This document shows, piece by piece, positions 1 to 6,952 of a DNA stretch of 64,000 bases. The position numbers and the translations under genes were made by a program. Source of the DNA: an uncultured Blautia sp. (GTDB lineage: Bacteria > Bacillota > Clostridia > Lachnospirales > Lachnospiraceae); contig NZ_CAKRNY010000010.1 in NCBI RefSeq assembly GCF_934371575.1, positions 27,850 to 91,849 of the forward strand, given 5' to 3'. Every line of letters begins with the position of its first letter. The stretch's first letter is position 1. The notes beneath the pieces were generated by a model. It saw only the letters and a program-made list of their open reading frames with translations. It was not told the DNA's origin and searched no databases.

Positions 1-557
1 TCTATTAGCTCCGGATTCTTTTCACATGCTTCCTCCCACTGAACTCTTGTGGTACCCATACGGCTTCCTGGTGCACAGGGATCATAAATCTCATGTCCGT
101 CCTGGGTAGAACATTCCGGGTTGATCCGCAGTCCCACACTCTTTCCTGCGTTCTTTGCTTTCGCGCCAAAACGAAGGAGCTGAGACGGCGAATTAAACAC
201 TATATGATCTGCATACTGAAGCAGTTCTTCAAATTCATCGGTTCGATAACCGGCGCAGAATACATGAACCTCTTTTCCCGGCATTTCCTCTGCACCCAGT
301 CTTGCCTCAAACAGTCCACTGGCTTCTGTACCTGCAAGGTACGGCTCGAAAAATCCATAGCAGTCATAGTTACTGAAGGCTTTCTGCGCCAGGAGCATCT
401 TGCATCCTGTTCGCCTGGATACCTCACCGAGCAGTTTTGCATTTTTAATAAGAGCTTTTTCATCCAGAATATAGCAGGGTGTCTTTATATTCCGGAATTC
501 CGGCGGAATGATTCCGCCGGTTGCTGTAAATGGGGCTCTTTTATCCAATCCTTCCAT
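1..557 (-). CDS. nspC: Carboxynorspermidine/carboxyspermidine decarboxylase, 3' part missing (runs off window)
   Basis: PLP enzyme of the alanine-racemase fold that decarboxylates carboxy(nor)spermidine, the last step of the aspartate-semialdehyde route to spermidine or norspermidine. The first 185 codons are visible and open to the window edge. The N-terminus reads TPCYILDEKALIKN, and LAQKAFSNYDCYGFF carries the expected PLP lysine; FCAGYRTDE and LRINPECS follow as in the family. The ATG at 557 shares its A with the TGA of the upstream dehydrogenase (TGATG), which points to translational coupling and supports this start. It is the last visible gene of the polyamine operon. The family is confident; preference for the spermidine or norspermidine precursor cannot be told from sequence. 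Confidence 0.9.
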   Translation of the reverse strand, partial: MEGLDKRAPFTATGGIIPPEFRNIKTPCYILDEKALIKNAKLLGEVSRRTGCKMLLAQKAFSNYDCYGFFEPYLAGTEASGLFEARLGAEEMPGKEVHVFCAGYRTDEFEELLQYADHIVFNSPSQLLRFGAKAKNAGKSVGLRINPECSTQDGHEIYDPCAPGSRMGTTRVQWEEACEKNPELI

Positions 558-1816
558 CAGTCTACCAGCTTCGGATCATGGCTTTCGCTGCGTGGCAGGC
601 CATACTGGTCAAGGGCATTCAGGAACGGATCCGGATCAAATTCTTCTACAGTGTATACACCTGGTTTGATCCATTTTCCGGTGAGCATCATAAGTGCACC
701 GCACATTGCCGGAACACCTGTTGTGTAGCTGATTGCCTGACTTCCAACCTCATGATAGCATTCCTGATGATCGCACACGTTGTAAATATAATATGTCTTT
801 TCTTTTCCGTCCTTCACGCCTGTAAAGATACAGCCAATGTTTGTTTTACCTTTTGTACGTGGTCCAAGGCTTGCAGGATCCGGAAGCAGTGCCTTCAGGA
901 ACTGGATTGGGACAATCTCCTGTCCATTGTACTGGATTGGTGTTGTGGAAAGCATTCCCACATCCTCAAGACAACGCATATGATCCAGATAGCTCTGTCC
1001 AAATGTCATAAAGAAGCGAATCCGTTTTACTCCTGGGATTGTGTTTGCAAGAGACTCGATCTCCTCATGGTGAAGCAGGTACATATCCTTATCTCCTACC
1101 TTATCAAAGTTATATTCTCTCTTAATGGTCATCGGAGGGATTTCCACCCAATGTCCGTTTTCCCAGTAGCTTCCCGGTGCACTTACCTCACGGAGATTGA
1201 TTTCCGGATTAAAGTTTGTGGCAAATGCATATCCATGGTCTCCGCCATTGCAGTCCAGAATGTCAATGGTATCAATCTGGTCAAATTCGTGCTTTAATGC
1301 ATAGGCACAGTATGCCTGTGTAACACCTGGATCGAATCCGCATCCAAGCAGTGCTGTAAGTCCTGCATCTTCAAATTTTTTACGATATGCCCACTGCCAG
1401 GAATAATCAAAGTAAGCGGAAAAGCCCTCTTCTTTGCAGCGTTTTTCATAAATAGCACGCCACTTCGGATCATCAGTATCCTCCGGCTCATAGTTTGCAG
1501 TATCCATATAATTTACACCACAGGCCAGACATGCATCCATGATTGTCAGATCCTGATAAGGAAGGGCAATGTTCATTACAAGATCTGGTTTGTAGTTATT
1601 GATCAGATCGATCAGCTGATTCACATCGTCCGCATCAACCTTGGCTGTGGTAATAACAGTCTTTGTCTTTCCCTTTAATTTTTCTGCGAGTGCATCACAT
1701 TTTTCCTTTGTGCGGCTTGCGATACACAGTTCTGTAAATACCTCATCTGCCTGACAACATTTCTGAATTGCTACACTGGCTACACCTCCGCAGCCGATTA
1801 CAAGTACTCTGCTCAT
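557..1816 (-). CDS. Carboxynorspermidine/carboxyspermidine dehydrogenase (saccharopine dehydrogenase family)
   Basis: NAD(P)H-dependent enzyme that joins aspartate semialdehyde to putrescine or diaminopropane, giving the carboxylated polyamine used by the next gene. The 419 residues open with a Rossmann motif, VLVIGCGGVASVAIQKC, and continue with the family blocks GCGFDPGVTQAY (about 158-169) and YTVEEFDPDPFLNALD near the C-terminus. Length is normal for the group. Annotated homologues are often called saccharopine dehydrogenase or Lys1, but coupling to nspC and the decarboxylase/agmatinase context make the polyamine role much more likely. Its start lies 39 nt after speB. The ATG at 1816 has an AAAAGGAGAAG ribosome site upstream. 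Confidence 0.9.
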   Translation of the reverse strand: MSRVLVIGCGGVASVAIQKCCQADEVFTELCIASRTKEKCDALAEKLKGKTKTVITTAKVDADDVNQLIDLINNYKPDLVMNIALPYQDLTIMDACLACGVNYMDTANYEPEDTDDPKWRAIYEKRCKEEGFSAYFDYSWQWAYRKKFEDAGLTALLGCGFDPGVTQAYCAYALKHEFDQIDTIDILDCNGGDHGYAFATNFNPEINLREVSAPGSYWENGHWVEIPPMTIKREYNFDKVGDKDMYLLHHEEIESLANTIPGVKRIRFFMTFGQSYLDHMRCLEDVGMLSTTPIQYNGQEIVPIQFLKALLPDPASLGPRTKGKTNIGCIFTGVKDGKEKTYYIYNVCDHQECYHEVGSQAISYTTGVPAMCGALMMLTGKWIKPGVYTVEEFDPDPFLNALDQYGLPRSESHDPKLVD

Positions 1817-1855: not shown

Positions 1856-2713
1856 TTATTTTGCAATCGCCAGAAGCAGTTCTCGAAGAACCTTACATGC
1901 AGTTGCAGTTGAAACACCGCTTGCATCCAGCATAGGTGCCAGTTCATTGACGTCTGCCCCTACTACATTTGCCTGAGAAACAGTGCGGATTGCATCAAGG
2001 AGTTCCAGAAAGCTCACACCTCCAGCTTCCGGGGTTCCTGTTCCCGGAAATACAGATGGATCCAGACAGTCCAGATCAATTGTAAAATATACAGGAACCT
2101 GTTTCTCTTTCAATTCTCTTACAGTCTCTTTCAGCCCCTCAAAAGTAAATGGATAAAAATCTGTATGCTGTGCGGCAAACTGAAATTCCTCTCTCTCACC
2201 GCTTCTGATACAAAACTGATGAATACGATTATCTCCCAAAAGCTCATGGCATCTGCGCAGTACACAGGCATGGCTCAATTTTGCTCCAAGATAATCATCC
2301 CTTAAATCTGCATGAGCATCAAAATGAATAATATGAAGATCCGGATATTTATGAAAAACCGCACGTACCGCAGCTAATGTTACAAGATGTTCTCCACCTA
2401 ACAGCAGTGGGAATTTGCCTGCATTTAATATTTCTTTCGCTCTTTTTTCAATATCCAAAAGAGCCATTTCACTGCTTCCAAAGCAAAGCTCCAGATCTCC
2501 GCTGTCAAACACCCTGATATCCATAAGATCTCTGTCCTGATACGGGCTGTAGGTCTCCAGTCCAAAGCTCTCATGACGCATGGCAGCAGGACCAAACCTG
2601 GCACCTGGACGAAAGCTTGTAGTGGAATCAAAGGGCGCACCATAAAGAACAACAGATGCTTCCTCAAAACTGCTTTCGCATCCAATAAAAGTCTCTACAT
2701 TCGGTAAAAGCAT
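1856..2713 (-). CDS. speB: Agmatinase, ureohydrolase family
   Basis: Mn-dependent hydrolase converting agmatine to putrescine and urea. At 285 residues it has the ureohydrolase metal ligands: GGEHLVTLAAV, HFDAHADLRDDY (DAHAD) and FTIDLDCLDPSVFPGTGTPE (DxDxxDP). The gene begins 3 nt after the speE stop, so the two are certainly co-transcribed. Presence of an agmatinase suggests that the upstream decarboxylase acts on arginine, at least in part. Arginase or formiminoglutamase activity cannot be excluded from motifs alone, but the operon context argues for agmatinase. Confidence 0.93.
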   Translation of the reverse strand: MLLPNVETFIGCESSFEEASVVLYGAPFDSTTSFRPGARFGPAAMRHESFGLETYSPYQDRDLMDIRVFDSGDLELCFGSSEMALLDIEKRAKEILNAGKFPLLLGGEHLVTLAAVRAVFHKYPDLHIIHFDAHADLRDDYLGAKLSHACVLRRCHELLGDNRIHQFCIRSGEREEFQFAAQHTDFYPFTFEGLKETVRELKEKQVPVYFTIDLDCLDPSVFPGTGTPEAGGVSFLELLDAIRTVSQANVVGADVNELAPMLDASGVSTATACKVLRELLLAIAK

Positions 2714-2716
2714 GAA

Positions 2717-3571
2717 TTATTCCTCCACTTCTTTCAGCATCTCTTCCAGAAATGCCGGAAGATAAAAGGCCCCTTTATGAAGTCTTGTTGTATAGTAACG
2801 TGTCCGAAGATTTAATGCTGTCCAGGCTTCCGAATCCAGATCATCAACAGGATGATATTTTTTACTTGCAAATCCAAATAACCAGTATCCTGCAGCGAAT
2901 GTCGGGATATGTGCCTGATAAACACGGCTGATCTGGAATGTACTTGCAATTTTCTTATGGCTGCGCTGCATGGCATGTGCATCTTCGGTATAAAATGGAC
3001 TTCCCTGCTGATTGACCATAATTCCGTCATCCTTCAGTGCGTTATAACAGTTTCCATAAAATTCACGGGTAAACAGTCCTTCAGAAGGACCGAAGGGATC
3101 CGAAGAGTCTACAATGATAAGGTCATATTTTCCCTCGCACCGTCGGATAAATTTCAGTGCATTTTCGTAATGAAGATGTACTCTTCTGTCATCCAGCCGG
3201 CAGGCATTTTCCGGGAGATATGCGCGGCAGGCTTCCACAACCATGGGGTCCATTTCTACCAGATCAATACGTCTGACCCTGTCATATCTGGTCAGTTCAC
3301 GGACAACACCGCCATCTCCGGCACCAATCACAAGAATATCTTTTGCCTCTTTATGGATCGCCATGGGTACGTGAGTGATCATTTCATCATAAATAAATTC
3401 GTCTCTCTCTGTCAGCATTACATTTCCATCCAAAGTCAGCACACGGCCAAATTCAGGTGTCTCAAAAATATCAATTCTCTGATAATCACTTTGTTTCGAA
3501 TAAAGCTGACGGTTCACACGGATACTGTGCTTCACATCCGGTGTATGAAATTCTGAAAACCACATTTCCAT
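2717..3571 (-). CDS. speE: Polyamine aminopropyltransferase (spermidine synthase)
   Basis: Transfers an aminopropyl group from decarboxylated S-adenosylmethionine to putrescine or a related amine. The 284-residue protein has the N-terminal beta domain (MEMWFSEFHTPDVKHS), a Rossmann methyltransferase-like core with VIGAGDGGVVREL (about 82-94) and LVEMDPMVVEAC, and the conserved VDSSDPFGPSEGLFTREF active-site loop. It lies 5 nt after speA. The enzyme needs a SAM decarboxylase (speD) partner and none is present in the window. Together with the dehydrogenase/NspC route the operon seems to encode two ways of adding an aminopropyl group, which is noted as a finding. Confidence 0.92.
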   Translation of the reverse strand: MEMWFSEFHTPDVKHSIRVNRQLYSKQSDYQRIDIFETPEFGRVLTLDGNVMLTERDEFIYDEMITHVPMAIHKEAKDILVIGAGDGGVVRELTRYDRVRRIDLVEMDPMVVEACRAYLPENACRLDDRRVHLHYENALKFIRRCEGKYDLIIVDSSDPFGPSEGLFTREFYGNCYNALKDDGIMVNQQGSPFYTEDAHAMQRSHKKIASTFQISRVYQAHIPTFAAGYWLFGFASKKYHPVDDLDSEAWTALNLRTRYYTTRLHKGAFYLPAFLEEMLKEVEE

Positions 3572-3576
3572 TGCTT

Positions 3577-5043
3577 TTACCTCCCTGTCAGAACATTCAG
3601 TTTCAAAATATCCGGATCCTCAGGTCCTGTCATATTACAGCCCTTTGCCTTGGCATATTCAATATAATCCAGGATTTCTGCCGTAATCCGCTCTCCTGGT
3701 GCCAGAATGGGAATTCCTGGCGGATAACACATTACAAATTCACTGCAGACTTTCCCTTCTGTTTCCCGAAGAGGCAGGCTGCATTTATCCGCATAAAAAG
3801 CTTCCTGTGGACTGGTCACCACCTGAGGGTCAATATATTCCTGGCTCAAAAGCCCGGATCCATCTGTCTGAAAGCGTCTGCGGATTTCTGCAAGTGCGCT
3901 CACAAGCCGTTCCACTTCCTGGGCACGGTCACCAATGGAAAGATAGGCAAGAATATTCCCAATATCACCGAATTCAATCTGGATATCGTATTCATCCCGC
4001 AGAATATCATAAACTTCGATTCCTGCCAATCCGATGTCCAGCGTATGTACACTTAATTTTGTAATATCAAAATCAAAAACAGAGTTTCCATTTACCAGTT
4101 CTTTTCCAAATGCATAATAGCCGCCGATGGCATTGATTTCCTCCCGGGCATATTCTGCCATATCTGCTACCTGATGAAAGATCTGGCGTCCACGCTGCGC
4201 AAGATTTCTTCTTGAAATATCAAGACTGGACATCAGAAGGTAGCTTCCCGAGGTGGTCTGTGTCAGATTAATAATCTGGCGCACATAACCTGCATGTACA
4301 GCCGGACCTGTAAGGAGAAGGCTTGACTGTGTAAGGCTTCCGCCGCTTTTATGCATGGATACAGCTGCCATATCTGCACCTGCCGCCATGGCAGAAACCG
4401 GCAGTCCCCCGCCAAAATAAAAATGGGTTCCATGGGCTTCATCTGCCAGACACAGCATTCCTGCATCATGTGCCATTTTGACAATCGCACGTAAATCACT
4501 GCATATTCCATAATAGGTCGGATTATTTACCAGTACCGCAACTGCTTTCGGATGTTCTTTTATGGCTTTTTCAACCTGTTCCCTGCGCATTCCCAGAGAA
4601 ATTCCAAGTTTCCGGTCTACTTCCGGATTTACATAAACAGGAATTGCGCCGCACAAAACAAGTGCATTTAAAACACTCCTGTGGACATTACGGGGCAATA
4701 TGATTTCATCTCCGCGCTTACAGGCAGTCAATACCATTGTCTGAACAGAGCTTGTTGTACCACCTACCATCAGAAATGCATGTGCCGCCCCAAAAGCATC
4801 TGCCGCCAGTTCTTCTGCTTCCTGTATTACAGATACCGGATGACAGAGGTTGTCCAGTGGTTTCATGCTGTTGACATCCACCCCGACACATTTTTGTCCC
4901 AAAAATTCTGTCAGTTCAGGATTGCCTCTTCCTCGTTTATGTCCAGGGACATCAAATGGTACAACTCTCATTCGACGGAAAGTCTCCAGAGCTTCATGTA
5001 TGGGTGCATGATTCTGGTTTAACTTAAAACGACTTCCTTTCAT
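3577..5043 (-). CDS. speA: Orn/Lys/Arg decarboxylase, fold III (probable biosynthetic arginine decarboxylase)
   Basis: PLP decarboxylase of the ornithine/lysine/arginine aspartate-aminotransferase fold, about 488 residues, the short Firmicute form. Visible motifs are VPFDVPGHKRG, HAFLMVGGTTSS, the cofactor aspartate in LADEAHGTHF, and the PLP lysine in SMHKSGGSLTQSS. Downstream agmatinase suggests arginine as substrate, but lysine or ornithine use is possible. Start choice: the longest frame begins at a TTG (5082) with no ribosome site, while GGAGG at 5052-5048 lies just before two ATGs at 5046 and 5043; I took 5043. First gene of the polyamine operon, directly behind the structured leader and terminator. 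Confidence 0.92.
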   Translation of the reverse strand: MKGSRFKLNQNHAPIHEALETFRRMRVVPFDVPGHKRGRGNPELTEFLGQKCVGVDVNSMKPLDNLCHPVSVIQEAEELAADAFGAAHAFLMVGGTTSSVQTMVLTACKRGDEIILPRNVHRSVLNALVLCGAIPVYVNPEVDRKLGISLGMRREQVEKAIKEHPKAVAVLVNNPTYYGICSDLRAIVKMAHDAGMLCLADEAHGTHFYFGGGLPVSAMAAGADMAAVSMHKSGGSLTQSSLLLTGPAVHAGYVRQIINLTQTTSGSYLLMSSLDISRRNLAQRGRQIFHQVADMAEYAREEINAIGGYYAFGKELVNGNSVFDFDITKLSVHTLDIGLAGIEVYDILRDEYDIQIEFGDIGNILAYLSIGDRAQEVERLVSALAEIRRRFQTDGSGLLSQEYIDPQVVTSPQEAFYADKCSLPLRETEGKVCSEFVMCYPPGIPILAPGERITAEILDYIEYAKAKGCNMTGPEDPDILKLNVLTGR

Positions 5044-5103
5044 CATTCCTCCATTTCCAGTTTCCTTTGCTTCAACCCTCAATCAGTAATTTTCTATTAC
5101 ACG

Positions 5104-5166
5104 CAAAAAAACGCAGATAAGGGCACACTTAGCCACAAACCTGCGTTTCGATCTGTATTTATCTGC
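5104..5166 (-). terminator. Terminator with competing antiterminator before speA
   Basis: AAACGCAG (5148-5141) pairs with CTGCGTTT (5116-5109), which runs into a T tract at 5111-5105. The same 3' strand, TTATCTGC (5120-5113), can instead pair 8/8 with GCAGATAA (5166-5159). The two pairings share CTGC and exclude each other, as in a transcription-attenuation switch. Confidence 0.7.
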
Positions 5167-5494
5167 TCTGTTTCCAACCCTAAAAGAGAATACGTTACTT
5201 TCTCTCAGGAACAAAAACAAAACTTCTGGATCATGCGTGTCAGAGTCTATATAGCAATCATACTTTTACTACTCTTATTGACCGTTTCACAAGTCTGCGC
5301 TTCTGGCGCATCGCGGTTATCAAAGGAACCTACTTATAAAATTTGAGCTTTTAACTCAATCAATAAGGTAACCAAAGTTACCATAATCGGCAGTGGACCC
5401 GGCTGTCCGTATGGCCTTAACCCTGACGGGTGGTCCAAAACAATTGCTTTGAAAAGACTCTGTCTGTTACTCTGCATCTTCGTCTTTCAAAATC
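5104..5494 (-). ncRNA. Long structured leader RNA of the polyamine operon, candidate riboswitch/attenuator
   Basis: Non-coding stretch of about 390 nt between a strong promoter and speA. Visible helices (forward-strand coordinates): CAGAGTC 5462-5456 with GACTCTG 5247-5241, closing a ~220-nt core; GGACC 5436-5432 with GGTCC 5399-5395; GGTAAC/GTTACC hairpin 5367-5382; TTATTGA 5366-5360 with TCAATAA 5281-5275; hairpins TTGAG/CTCAA 5343-5359 and TGCGC/GCGCA 5296-5310; ACCG/CGGT 5317-5281. The 3' end has an intrinsic terminator. It does not match the T-box, lysine, SAM, cobalamin or THF riboswitch consensus I know. It could also be a free-standing ncRNA (for example raiA- or 6S-type) that only happens to precede speA. 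Confidence 0.6.
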
Positions 5495-5500
5495 GGGTTC

Positions 5501-5529
5501 ATAATACCATGTTAAAAATAATCTGTCAA
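5501..5529 (-). promoter_or_regulatory. Sigma-A promoter of the leader RNA / polyamine operon
   Basis: TTGACA (5529-5524), a 17-bp spacer, then TATTAT (5506-5501). Transcription should start near 5494. It is a near-consensus promoter placed just after the MATE gene terminator. Confidence 0.8.
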
Positions 5530-5535
5530 TAATAA

Positions 5536-5588
5536 AATATAAAAATAAGCCATTCAGTTAGAAACATATCCAACCAAATGGCTTTTAT
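5536..5588 (-). terminator. Terminator after the MATE gene
   Basis: AAGCCATT and AATGGCTT arms with GTT/AAC inside, followed on the minus strand by ATTTTTAT. It separates the MATE operon from the polyamine leader promoter. Confidence 0.7.
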
Positions 5589-5590
5589 TC

Positions 5591-6952
5591 TTATCTTCTA
5601 TCCAGGATTTTATCAAACCTTCTGAAGAAAGTTGAAGTTGTAATGATTGCTGCAACGATATCGCTGATTGGCTCAGCCAGAAAGACGGCAAATACCTTAT
5701 TCTGAATGAAAAGCGGCAGAATAAAAATCAGCGGAATCAACAGGATCAGTTTTCTTAAACAGGCAAGGAGCAGACTGACCTTCGCCTGTCCCAATGCCAT
5801 AAAGCTCTGCTGGCAGGAAACCTGGAATCCCAGTGAAAAGATACCAGCCATATAGATTCTCAGTGCCCATGCGGTATACGTGATCAGATCTGTATCATTG
5901 GAGAAAATACCTGCAAAAAGCTTTGGAAACAGAAGCATGATCAGCCAGAAGCAGCCGGTAAAGATCGTACAGACTGTAAACTGTGTGAAAAATGCTTTTT
6001 TTACACGCTCTTTATTGCCGGCACCGAAATTGTAACTCATAATCGGCTGACCGCCCTGACAGATTCCCTGCAGCGGTAAGGTTGCAAGCTGGCTGACACT
6101 TGTGATAATAGTCATGGCTCCAACAGCAAGATCCCCGCCATATCTTGAAAGACTGGAAGTAAAACTGATGGACAGAATACTTTCTGTGGACAACATAACA
6201 AAAGTAGAGATTCCAAGCCCTAGACAGGGTAAAATAATATCTTTTTGCAATTTGAAATTTTCTTTTCTGAGATGGAGAATGGTCTTTTTCCCTGACAGAA
6301 AACGAAGAATCCAGATTGCGCCAACAGCCTGACTCAAAACAGTGGCAATCGCTGCACCGCTTACTCCCAGATCAAATACAAAAATAAAAATGGGATCCAG
6401 AATAATATTGATCACTGCACCGATCACAGTAGTCATCATACTGATCTTTGCAAATCCCTGTGTAGTGATAAAGGGATTCATTCCCATTACGATCAGGACA
6501 AAAATACTTCCCAGTATGTAGATTCTTGCGTATGCCACTCCATAAGGAAGGGTCTTTTCACTGGCGCCAAACAGTGTCAGAAGCTGTGGAGCAAAAGCGA
6601 AAAAAATCACCGTAAGGACTACGGCCATAAGAATGAGAAGTGAGAAGCAGTTTCCCAGAATCTTTTCAGCCGTCGTATTGTCTTTTTTTCCCATGGAGAT
6701 TGCTGCACGGGGAGCACCTCCTGATCCAGCAAGCATGGCAAAGGCATTGATCAGCATAAGAATTGGCGTGAATAATCCCACGCCGGTTAACGCTGCCGCT
6801 CCAACACCGGGAATATGTCCAATATAAATACGGTCTACAATGTTATACAAAAGATTGATAATCTGAGCCACAACAGCAGGAATTGCAAGCTGCGCCAAAA
6901 GACGTGGAATTTTTTCCGTTTCCATGGCCTGTGTGTTAGATTTACTGCTCAT
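5591..6952 (-). CDS. MATE family multidrug/cation antiporter
   Basis: Integral membrane exporter of the MATE (multi antimicrobial extrusion) family, 453 residues with about 12 hydrophobic segments in two homologous halves. The opening IPRLLAQLAIPAVVAQIINL and NIVDRIYIGHIPGVGAAALT match the DinF/NorM-type consensus, and the second half repeats it in GICQGGQPIMSYNFGAGN. Substrate unknown. It starts 15 nt after the upstream hybrid histidine kinase, so the two form an operon and the kinase may control or sense the transported compound. A kinase-MATE pair recurs at 22886-27935. Confidence 0.9.
   Translation of the reverse strand: MSSKSNTQAMETEKIPRLLAQLAIPAVVAQIINLLYNIVDRIYIGHIPGVGAAALTGVGLFTPILMLINAFAMLAGSGGAPRAAISMGKKDNTTAEKILGNCFSLLILMAVVLTVIFFAFAPQLLTLFGASEKTLPYGVAYARIYILGSIFVLIVMGMNPFITTQGFAKISMMTTVIGAVINIILDPIFIFVFDLGVSGAAIATVLSQAVGAIWILRFLSGKKTILHLRKENFKLQKDIILPCLGLGISTFVMLSTESILSISFTSSLSRYGGDLAVGAMTIITSVSQLATLPLQGICQGGQPIMSYNFGAGNKERVKKAFFTQFTVCTIFTGCFWLIMLLFPKLFAGIFSNDTDLITYTAWALRIYMAGIFSLGFQVSCQQSFMALGQAKVSLLLACLRKLILLIPLIFILPLFIQNKVFAVFLAEPISDIVAAIITTSTFFRRFDKILDRR

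Follow-up and report, generated by a model that had tools for sequence, protein, structure and literature searches.

A large and widespread leader RNA of polyamine genes, known in Rfam as a 54-nt fragment, is probably a riboswitch-like transcription attenuator

The analysed stretch of DNA from an uncultured Blautia sp. (64,000 nt; hereafter the window) carries on its minus strand a polyamine operon, in which speA is followed by speE, speB, and a gene resembling carboxynorspermidine synthase (Table 1). The likely start codon of speA is the ATG at position 5043, located after a GGAGG sequence in a frame that is open from a TTG at position 5082. The nearest relative found among named genomes is Blautia sp. 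MSJ-9 (SpeA 99%, SpeE 98%; locus L088). Directly upstream of speA lies a long leader, as stated in an earlier note made from the sequence alone. The region 5088-5500 folds better than each of 100 dinucleotide-shuffled sequences (z -4.58), and the conserved RNA in it spans about 5241-5462 (~220 nt). The elements described in that note, a closing helix CAGAGTC/GACTCTG (5456-5462 with 5241-5247), multiple other helices, of which several were confirmed, a terminator hairpin with a T tract, and a near-consensus promoter, are present on the minus strand. Promoter-like sites are equally frequent in shuffled sequences (two found versus 1.6 expected in the same scan), and the site is therefore no evidence by itself. 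Just upstream of this site lies the end of a terminator-like hairpin (5547-5584, minus strand) that follows the MATE transporter gene (5591-6952).

Table 1. Features of the polyamine operon and its leader in the window
Feature	Position	Strand	Evidence
Promoter-like site TTGACA-17-TATTAT, 11/12 consensus plus TG	5501..5529	-	Consensus match only
Long-range helix P1, 5' strand: P1a CAGAGTC (5456-5462), P1b AGCAATTGT (5440-5448)	5437..5462	-	Species-matched pairing with 3' end
P2 domain = RF02440/SpF59/ldcC RNA (GACC..GGUC, hairpin, AAGGCCAUACGGACAGCCGGGUC, then UGCCGA)	5387..5436	-	Infernal, 68.9 bits
Conserved 3' scaffold P3, P5, P4, P6, P6a, P6b, P7 (model R1)	5241..5395	-	R1 match and covariation
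P6 5' strand UUUUAUAAGU	5332..5341	-	Covariation alignment
P6b/P6 3' strand; contains antiterminator 5' strand CGCAGACUUGUG (5288-5299)	5285..5302	-	P6 pairs
P7 local hairpin AGAGU.AGUA / UGCU..ACUCU; 3' half alternatively pairs with P1	5242..5275	-	
Intrinsic terminator, 20-nt loop; 5' arm CGCAGGUUUGUG (5134-5145) is the antiterminator partner	5105..5147	-	
speA, arginine/lysine/ornithine decarboxylase family (PF01276)	3577..5043	-	Pfam match; likely start codon
speE, spermidine synthase	2717..3571	-	TIGR00417, 302.8 bits, over cut-off
speB, agmatinase	1856..2713	-	TIGR01230, 281.4 bits, over cut-off
Carboxy(nor)spermidine-synthase-like gene	557..1816	-	NF043000, 409.6 bits, below its cut-off of 800; PF16653 and PF03435 (saccharopine-dehydrogenase Pfam domains)

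The leader had been suggested to be possibly undescribed, with no known RNA family that fits. The Rfam search with Infernal, named in the same place as a check, identified RF02440, "SpF59 sRNA (ldcC RNA)", in the P2 domain, which matches all 54 positions of the model (1-54) with an E value of 3e-12 and a score well over the gathering score of 37.2 bits. Because of this match, the description of the RNA as "undescribed" fails for the 5' domain. The family itself is tied to speA-type genes, and the match therefore does not refute a polyamine role. No second Rfam family reaches its gathering score anywhere in the window, and weak matches to miRNA families and TeloSII_ncR30 in a low-threshold search, all far below gathering scores, were ignored. 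The leader is real and important, and it is not wholly undescribed.

The 54-nt entry bears the name of the ldcC RNA motif, which was reportedly proposed by Weinberg et al. in 2017 as a possible cis-regulator upstream of decarboxylase genes in Firmicutes. In Rfam it is filed as "Gene; sRNA", not as a cis-regulator, and its model covers only about one quarter of the conserved RNA: it ends before P3, whereas the RNA extends ~145 nt further and also includes an upstream 5' strand. All of the 3' scaffold except its first 9 nt (5387-5395) falls outside the Rfam model. The evidence here speaks for reading this entry as part of a cis-regulatory leader of roughly four times its length. Among the matches listed in a literature search, which had most subscription papers outside its reach, neither the extended RNA, nor the P6 antiterminator, nor the RF02440 number is described, which does not prove their absence.

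An exact 20-mer of the RF02440 domain occurs in at least 118 stretches of species genomes, and the matches listed come from Oscillospiraceae, Lachnospiraceae, Paenibacillus, Bacillus and relatives, Acidaminococcus, and Synergistaceae. When 11 loci cut by contig ends were dropped, the flanks of the matches listed were found to be conserved over ~220 nt, often letter for letter. A nucleotide profile search covered the loci found by RF02440 or fetched for it. The match reaches deep into the 3' scaffold in all 68 of L119-L186, five of which duplicate earlier loci, and L187 is truncated by its contig end. In genome samples that partly overlap, RF02440 was detected in 35 of 291 genomes of the class of the Blautia (34 over the cut-off), 24 of 299 genomes of the class of the Neobacillus locus, 7 of 119 of the phylum of the Acidaminococcus locus, and 4 of 61 of the phylum of the Synergistaceae locus. 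An origin from mobile elements was rejected, as the leader RNA is unmatched among 50,697 phage records and no viral contig has the exact 18-mer; one Paenibacillus replicon of 2.7 Mb with a match is listed as a plasmid.

For the 3' part, a model named R1 was made from 41 of 66 representative sequences (153 positions, 41 pairs; P6b left out); the remaining 25 were omitted for length, long inserts, or poor ends, and many of them return in the covariation alignment A2. R1 shares with RF02440 only the last 9 unpaired positions of the latter (window 5387-5395). Since the window is one of the 41 seeds, its R1 score of 152.5 bits is a match by construction. In the class of the Blautia, R1 matches 27 of 196 genomes, at least seven of which also supplied seeds; 22 of the 27 carry RF02440, and the other five, none of them a seed, lack it even at E up to 1. 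The P2 region of these five members is degenerate or missing, and they still precede speA or speD. At closer range, R1 matches 23 of 60 genomes of the genus and 39 of 150 of the family, and 9 of the 48 genus/family loci with an R1 match have no RF02440 match. In Bacilli-class genomes it was found in all nine RF02440-positive genomes (one of them a seed) and in none of the 19 RF02440-negative genomes tested.

The genes downstream of the RNA form a consistent set. Among 269 located sequences, which include the window and repeated loci, the first polyamine gene encodes SpeA in 97, SpeD in 67, carboxyspermidine dehydrogenase (CASDH) in 61, and PotA in 38 cases, with one other gene and five sequences that were too short. 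The earlier note had proposed to look for the leader before homologous operons, and a polyamine gene on the same strand indeed follows shortly in 263 of the 264 loci with room, with the estimated gene start 24-435 nt 3' of R1. Placement before decarboxylase or polyamine genes, the reported context of the ldcC RNA, is found both for speA in the window and for these loci. The sole exception with room, L260 (R1 match at 1501-1628, minus strand), has a secreted peptidase-like protein downstream, as judged by eye. The 233 located sequences that match in full and contain no N yield 185 distinct RNAs (SpeA 70, SpeD 52, CASDH 39, PotA 21, three without class). Examples of downstream genes in NCBIfam and Pfam include AdoMet decarboxylase, NspC, and a carboxynorspermidine synthase-like gene below the cut-off, and, for transport, spermidine/putrescine PotA over the cut-off and PotB-D-like genes below it; PotB is within reach in 20 of the 38 PotA loci. 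Two loci have another known RNA nearby: a ZMP/ZTP riboswitch close to the ldcC-type RNA (L241:873-958, minus strand), and a Clostridiales-1 RNA (RF01699; L267:2839-2984, plus strand) ~1.2 kb from an RF02440-less R1 match preceding a CASDH gene.

Covariation, another of the checks named earlier, was analysed in alignment A2, which comprises 100 chosen loci, all matched by R1, and is itself fitted to R1. In A2, 97.2% of cells pair, compared with 33.5-43.6% when the partners are slid, and 23 of the 41 pairs change on both sides, compared with 8.3 in shuffles, none of 500 of which reaches 23. Most of the covariation is carried by P3, P4, and P6a, and most pairs of P5, P6, and P7 vary too little to covary and lend little support of this kind. 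RNAalifold alone recovers 18 pairs from A2, 12 of them with double changes, and P6 and P7 are absent from its fold. Overall the covariation is strong, and the 5' leader has a conserved covarying structure, as is expected of a riboswitch.

Helices P1a and P1b lie outside R1 and were tested by permutation of partners, a procedure that does not fully remove relatedness: own partners score -8.56 versus -6.13 for permuted ones in P1b (90 loci) and -11.06 versus -8.87 in P1a (80 loci), with 0 of 2000 permutations reaching the own value in either case, and both signals hold for permutation within gene class. In a cruder test of a P1b-type helix, own partners were better than swapped ones in only 65 of 87 loci. 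P1b is directly visible in clade variants such as GCAAATATT/AATATTTGC (L249), CACAATG/CATTGTG (L149), and GAACTACTT/AAGTAGTTC (L179). The 3' letters UUGCU..GACUCU can pair in either P7 or P1, and this competition suggests a strand exchange between the two. In several Bacillaceae and Paenibacillaceae (L100, L099, L118, and others), inspection by eye of the matches listed revealed an upstream 5' hairpin GGAAAG/CTTTCC that shares letters with the P1a strand, and, 3' of the RNA, a conserved ATATTTTGAATATTAA..GCTTTC; the two are possibly another alternative pairing.

The P2 domain shows variation of its own. The double change from GGC/GCC to GCC/GGC was found in eight distinct members by regular expression and in two more by eye; the variant GCC..GGC (for instance AAGCCCAUACGGACAGGCGGG) is seen in L165, L168, L241, L242, L249, L254, L264, L265, L269, and L270, and it may mark a specificity variant. 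Of seven "CC" rows inspected by eye, four have GGCC..GCC, L182 has GGCC..GCU, and L183 and L261 have AGCC..GCU. In L236, L253, L257, L258, and L263 (about 1500-1665), located before speA or speD, P2 and with it RF02440 is gone, and the P1b strand abuts P3 (by eye in L236). The existence of natural members without P2 means that P2 is not essential to every member.

Terminators scoring at least 14 were found in 166 of 182 distinct RNAs, compared with 25 of 546 shuffled linkers, in scans that reach 40 nt past the estimated gene start (minimum 120 nt, maximum 420 nt). They are located between the RNA and the gene or at the estimated gene start, and are distributed over all gene classes (SpeA 67/70, SpeD 48/52, PotA 21/21, CASDH 30/39); 16 of the 182 RNAs, nine of them before CASDH, have no terminator at the threshold score. 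The terminator of the window was missing from the list of the first scan, which allowed loops of 3-8 nt, because of its 20-nt loop; in the later scan it scores 17.5, lower than most relatives.

When each RNA was scanned along its length against the 5' arm of its own terminator, one sharp peak of about -14 kcal/mol appeared at the P6b/P6 3' strand, compared with means of -3.9 to -10 elsewhere in the RNA. Of 166 loci, 125 pair better with their own arm than with swapped partners on average, and 121 do so when the swaps stay within gene class. In a permutation sample of 96 of 103 representatives, the own antiterminator has a mean of -16.56 kcal/mol, compared with -12.42 (sd 0.27) for permuted partners and -12.85 (sd 0.30) for partners permuted within gene class, each value unmatched in 2000 permutations. 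In the window, CGCAGACUUGUG forms 12 contiguous pairs with CGCAGGUUUGUG (-17.2 kcal/mol), and in other members both strands have changed together: CGACATTTGTG with CGCAAATGTTG in L259, GTGGTACAC with GTGTACCAC in L204, GGTACACACTTGTG with CACGGGTGTGTTGCC in L184, and CTGTG with TACAG in L024. The pairing is weak (above -10 kcal/mol) in seven of the 96, namely L062, L096, L173, L175, L251, L258, and L270. A different antiterminator, GCAGATAA with TTATCTGC, had been proposed for the window. The window has its letters, but inspection by eye of L088, L227, L228, and L229 showed no 8/8 pairing; L229 has a different 6-nt one, CAGATC/GATCTG. We rejected the proposed antiterminator as unconserved in close relatives, the conserved antiterminator being the one that uses the P6b/P6 3' strand.

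The comparisons suggest an expression platform coupled to the conserved core, although the energy model does not favour the antiterminator. Under the nearest-neighbour model, the P6 core state is more stable than the antiterminator by a median of 6.8 kcal/mol (91 loci), and the predicted minimum-energy state is the antiterminator in 11 of these loci. In the window, P6 remained paired whichever of four transcript lengths was folded. Such models omit pseudoknots and kinetics. Since the P6 state is favoured, the energy model gives no support that the antiterminated state is reached.

In our view, polyamine genes are preceded by a real, large, and widespread attenuator RNA, of which Rfam has only a 54-nt fragment; it is very probably riboswitch-like, with a ligand that is as yet a candidate. 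Comparison of the sequences shows a conserved fold P1-P7, in nearly every case a nearby polyamine gene, a terminator near the gene start, and a species-matched pairing of the P6b/P6 3' strand with the terminator arm. We consider the leader to be probably a full-length ldcC-type RNA of ~220 nt, which would act in cis as a riboswitch-like attenuator of transcription and control genes of polyamine synthesis and uptake. The earlier proposal of an attenuator or riboswitch-like leader tied to the polyamine operon is in this respect borne out by structure, covariation, and gene context, and had to be given up as regards the "undescribed" status and the particular antiterminator.

In the proposed mechanism, P6 and P6b of the folded core would hold the P6b/P6 3' strand, letting the terminator form and keeping the operon off; if nothing holds the core, this strand would pair with the terminator 5' arm and transcription would proceed into speA. 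The core would be held by a polyamine, most likely spermidine, as it is the common product of the regulated pathways and an expected substrate of the regulated transporter. Long-range P1 and local P7 would represent a second pair of alternatives, which may couple ligand binding at the junction to P6. By feedback logic, the RNA probably stops transcription when polyamines are plentiful.

The same attenuation could respond to another signal, such as a precursor (arginine, lysine, or ornithine), agmatine, decarboxylated SAM, or Mg2+. Many members indeed precede speA or speD, which encode enzymes near the pathway start, but the potA-type and carboxyspermidine dehydrogenase/decarboxylase contexts share spermidine-type compounds, not one precursor, and we regard such a signal as rather unlikely. 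Somewhat less probable still is a protein or other macromolecule that binds the core and holds or frees P6. The large size of the RNA and its unpaired stretches, conserved letter for letter among the matches listed, would suit such a binder, which, however, would have to be as widespread as the RNA itself, found in Clostridia-, Bacilli-, and Negativicutes-type organisms and in Synergistaceae; we know of no protein binder for ldcC-type RNA. Attenuation by a leader peptide or a T-box, suggested by the arginine/lysine metabolism genes downstream, is very unlikely: no T-box covariance model of Rfam matches the window, and the short frames of its leader all have 10-27 codons and no ribosome-binding site visible by eye in front. 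The T-box was rejected for lack of a match, and a leader peptide is considered improbable.

A trans-acting small RNA, in line with the Rfam type and the pneumococcal papers on F59/srn235, is also very improbable, given that the RNA and a closely following polyamine gene share the strand in 263 of 264 loci and that the antiterminator is species-matched; a terminated leader would itself resemble a small RNA. SP0916 of the pneumococcus is the Orn/Lys/Arg decarboxylase gene. In the pneumococcal papers, F59/srn235 is listed as an sRNA between SP0915 and SP0916 (PMC3395615, PMC12323649, PMC4387999), with a length of 82 nt in a 2012 table (PMC3395615) and of 327 nt by 2025 coordinates (PMC12323649), and with a lung fitness of 0.05 in the 2012 Tn-seq table (PMC3395615, PMC12323649); these papers present it as an sRNA that affects fitness in the lung, not as a leader. 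Judging by the name, F59 would be the source of RF02440, and it may be an attenuated leader that does not act in trans.

The attenuator preferred here resembles the spermidine riboswitch, a SAM-I variant, which according to PMC10853860 controls the similar polyamine genes speE, speB, speD, and ldcC by transcription termination and turns them off with spermidine; the same paper calls the evidence for earlier claims of polyamine riboswitches unconvincing. In contrast to that aptamer, the RNA of the window has no SAM-family match, either at gathering score in the window or at E up to 5 in 4950-5700, and it is set apart by this Rfam search alone. A SAM-I/spermidine switch was rejected for this reason, in agreement with the earlier statement that T-box and SAM motifs do not fit. 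A bolder reading, which we hold only tentatively and think somewhat doubtful, is that of a new widespread class of polyamine riboswitches unrelated to the SAM-I-type spermidine switch, in which P3-P7 would be the sensing scaffold, P2 an optional module whose loss or change marks an altered specificity or set point, and the P1/P7 and P6/antiterminator exchanges a two-step switch.

Validated bacterial polyamine riboswitches are few. With this analysis, what had been a 54-nt "sRNA" entry becomes a complete regulatory RNA whose borders are defined, whose regulon is consistent, and whose switching mechanism can be tested. A construct for assays of binding and termination can be designed exactly from the sequence, and the members that lack P2 or have a changed P2 are ready natural comparisons. 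For the bacteria that carry it, the regulon of this RNA would comprise three contexts of polyamine synthesis and an uptake system.
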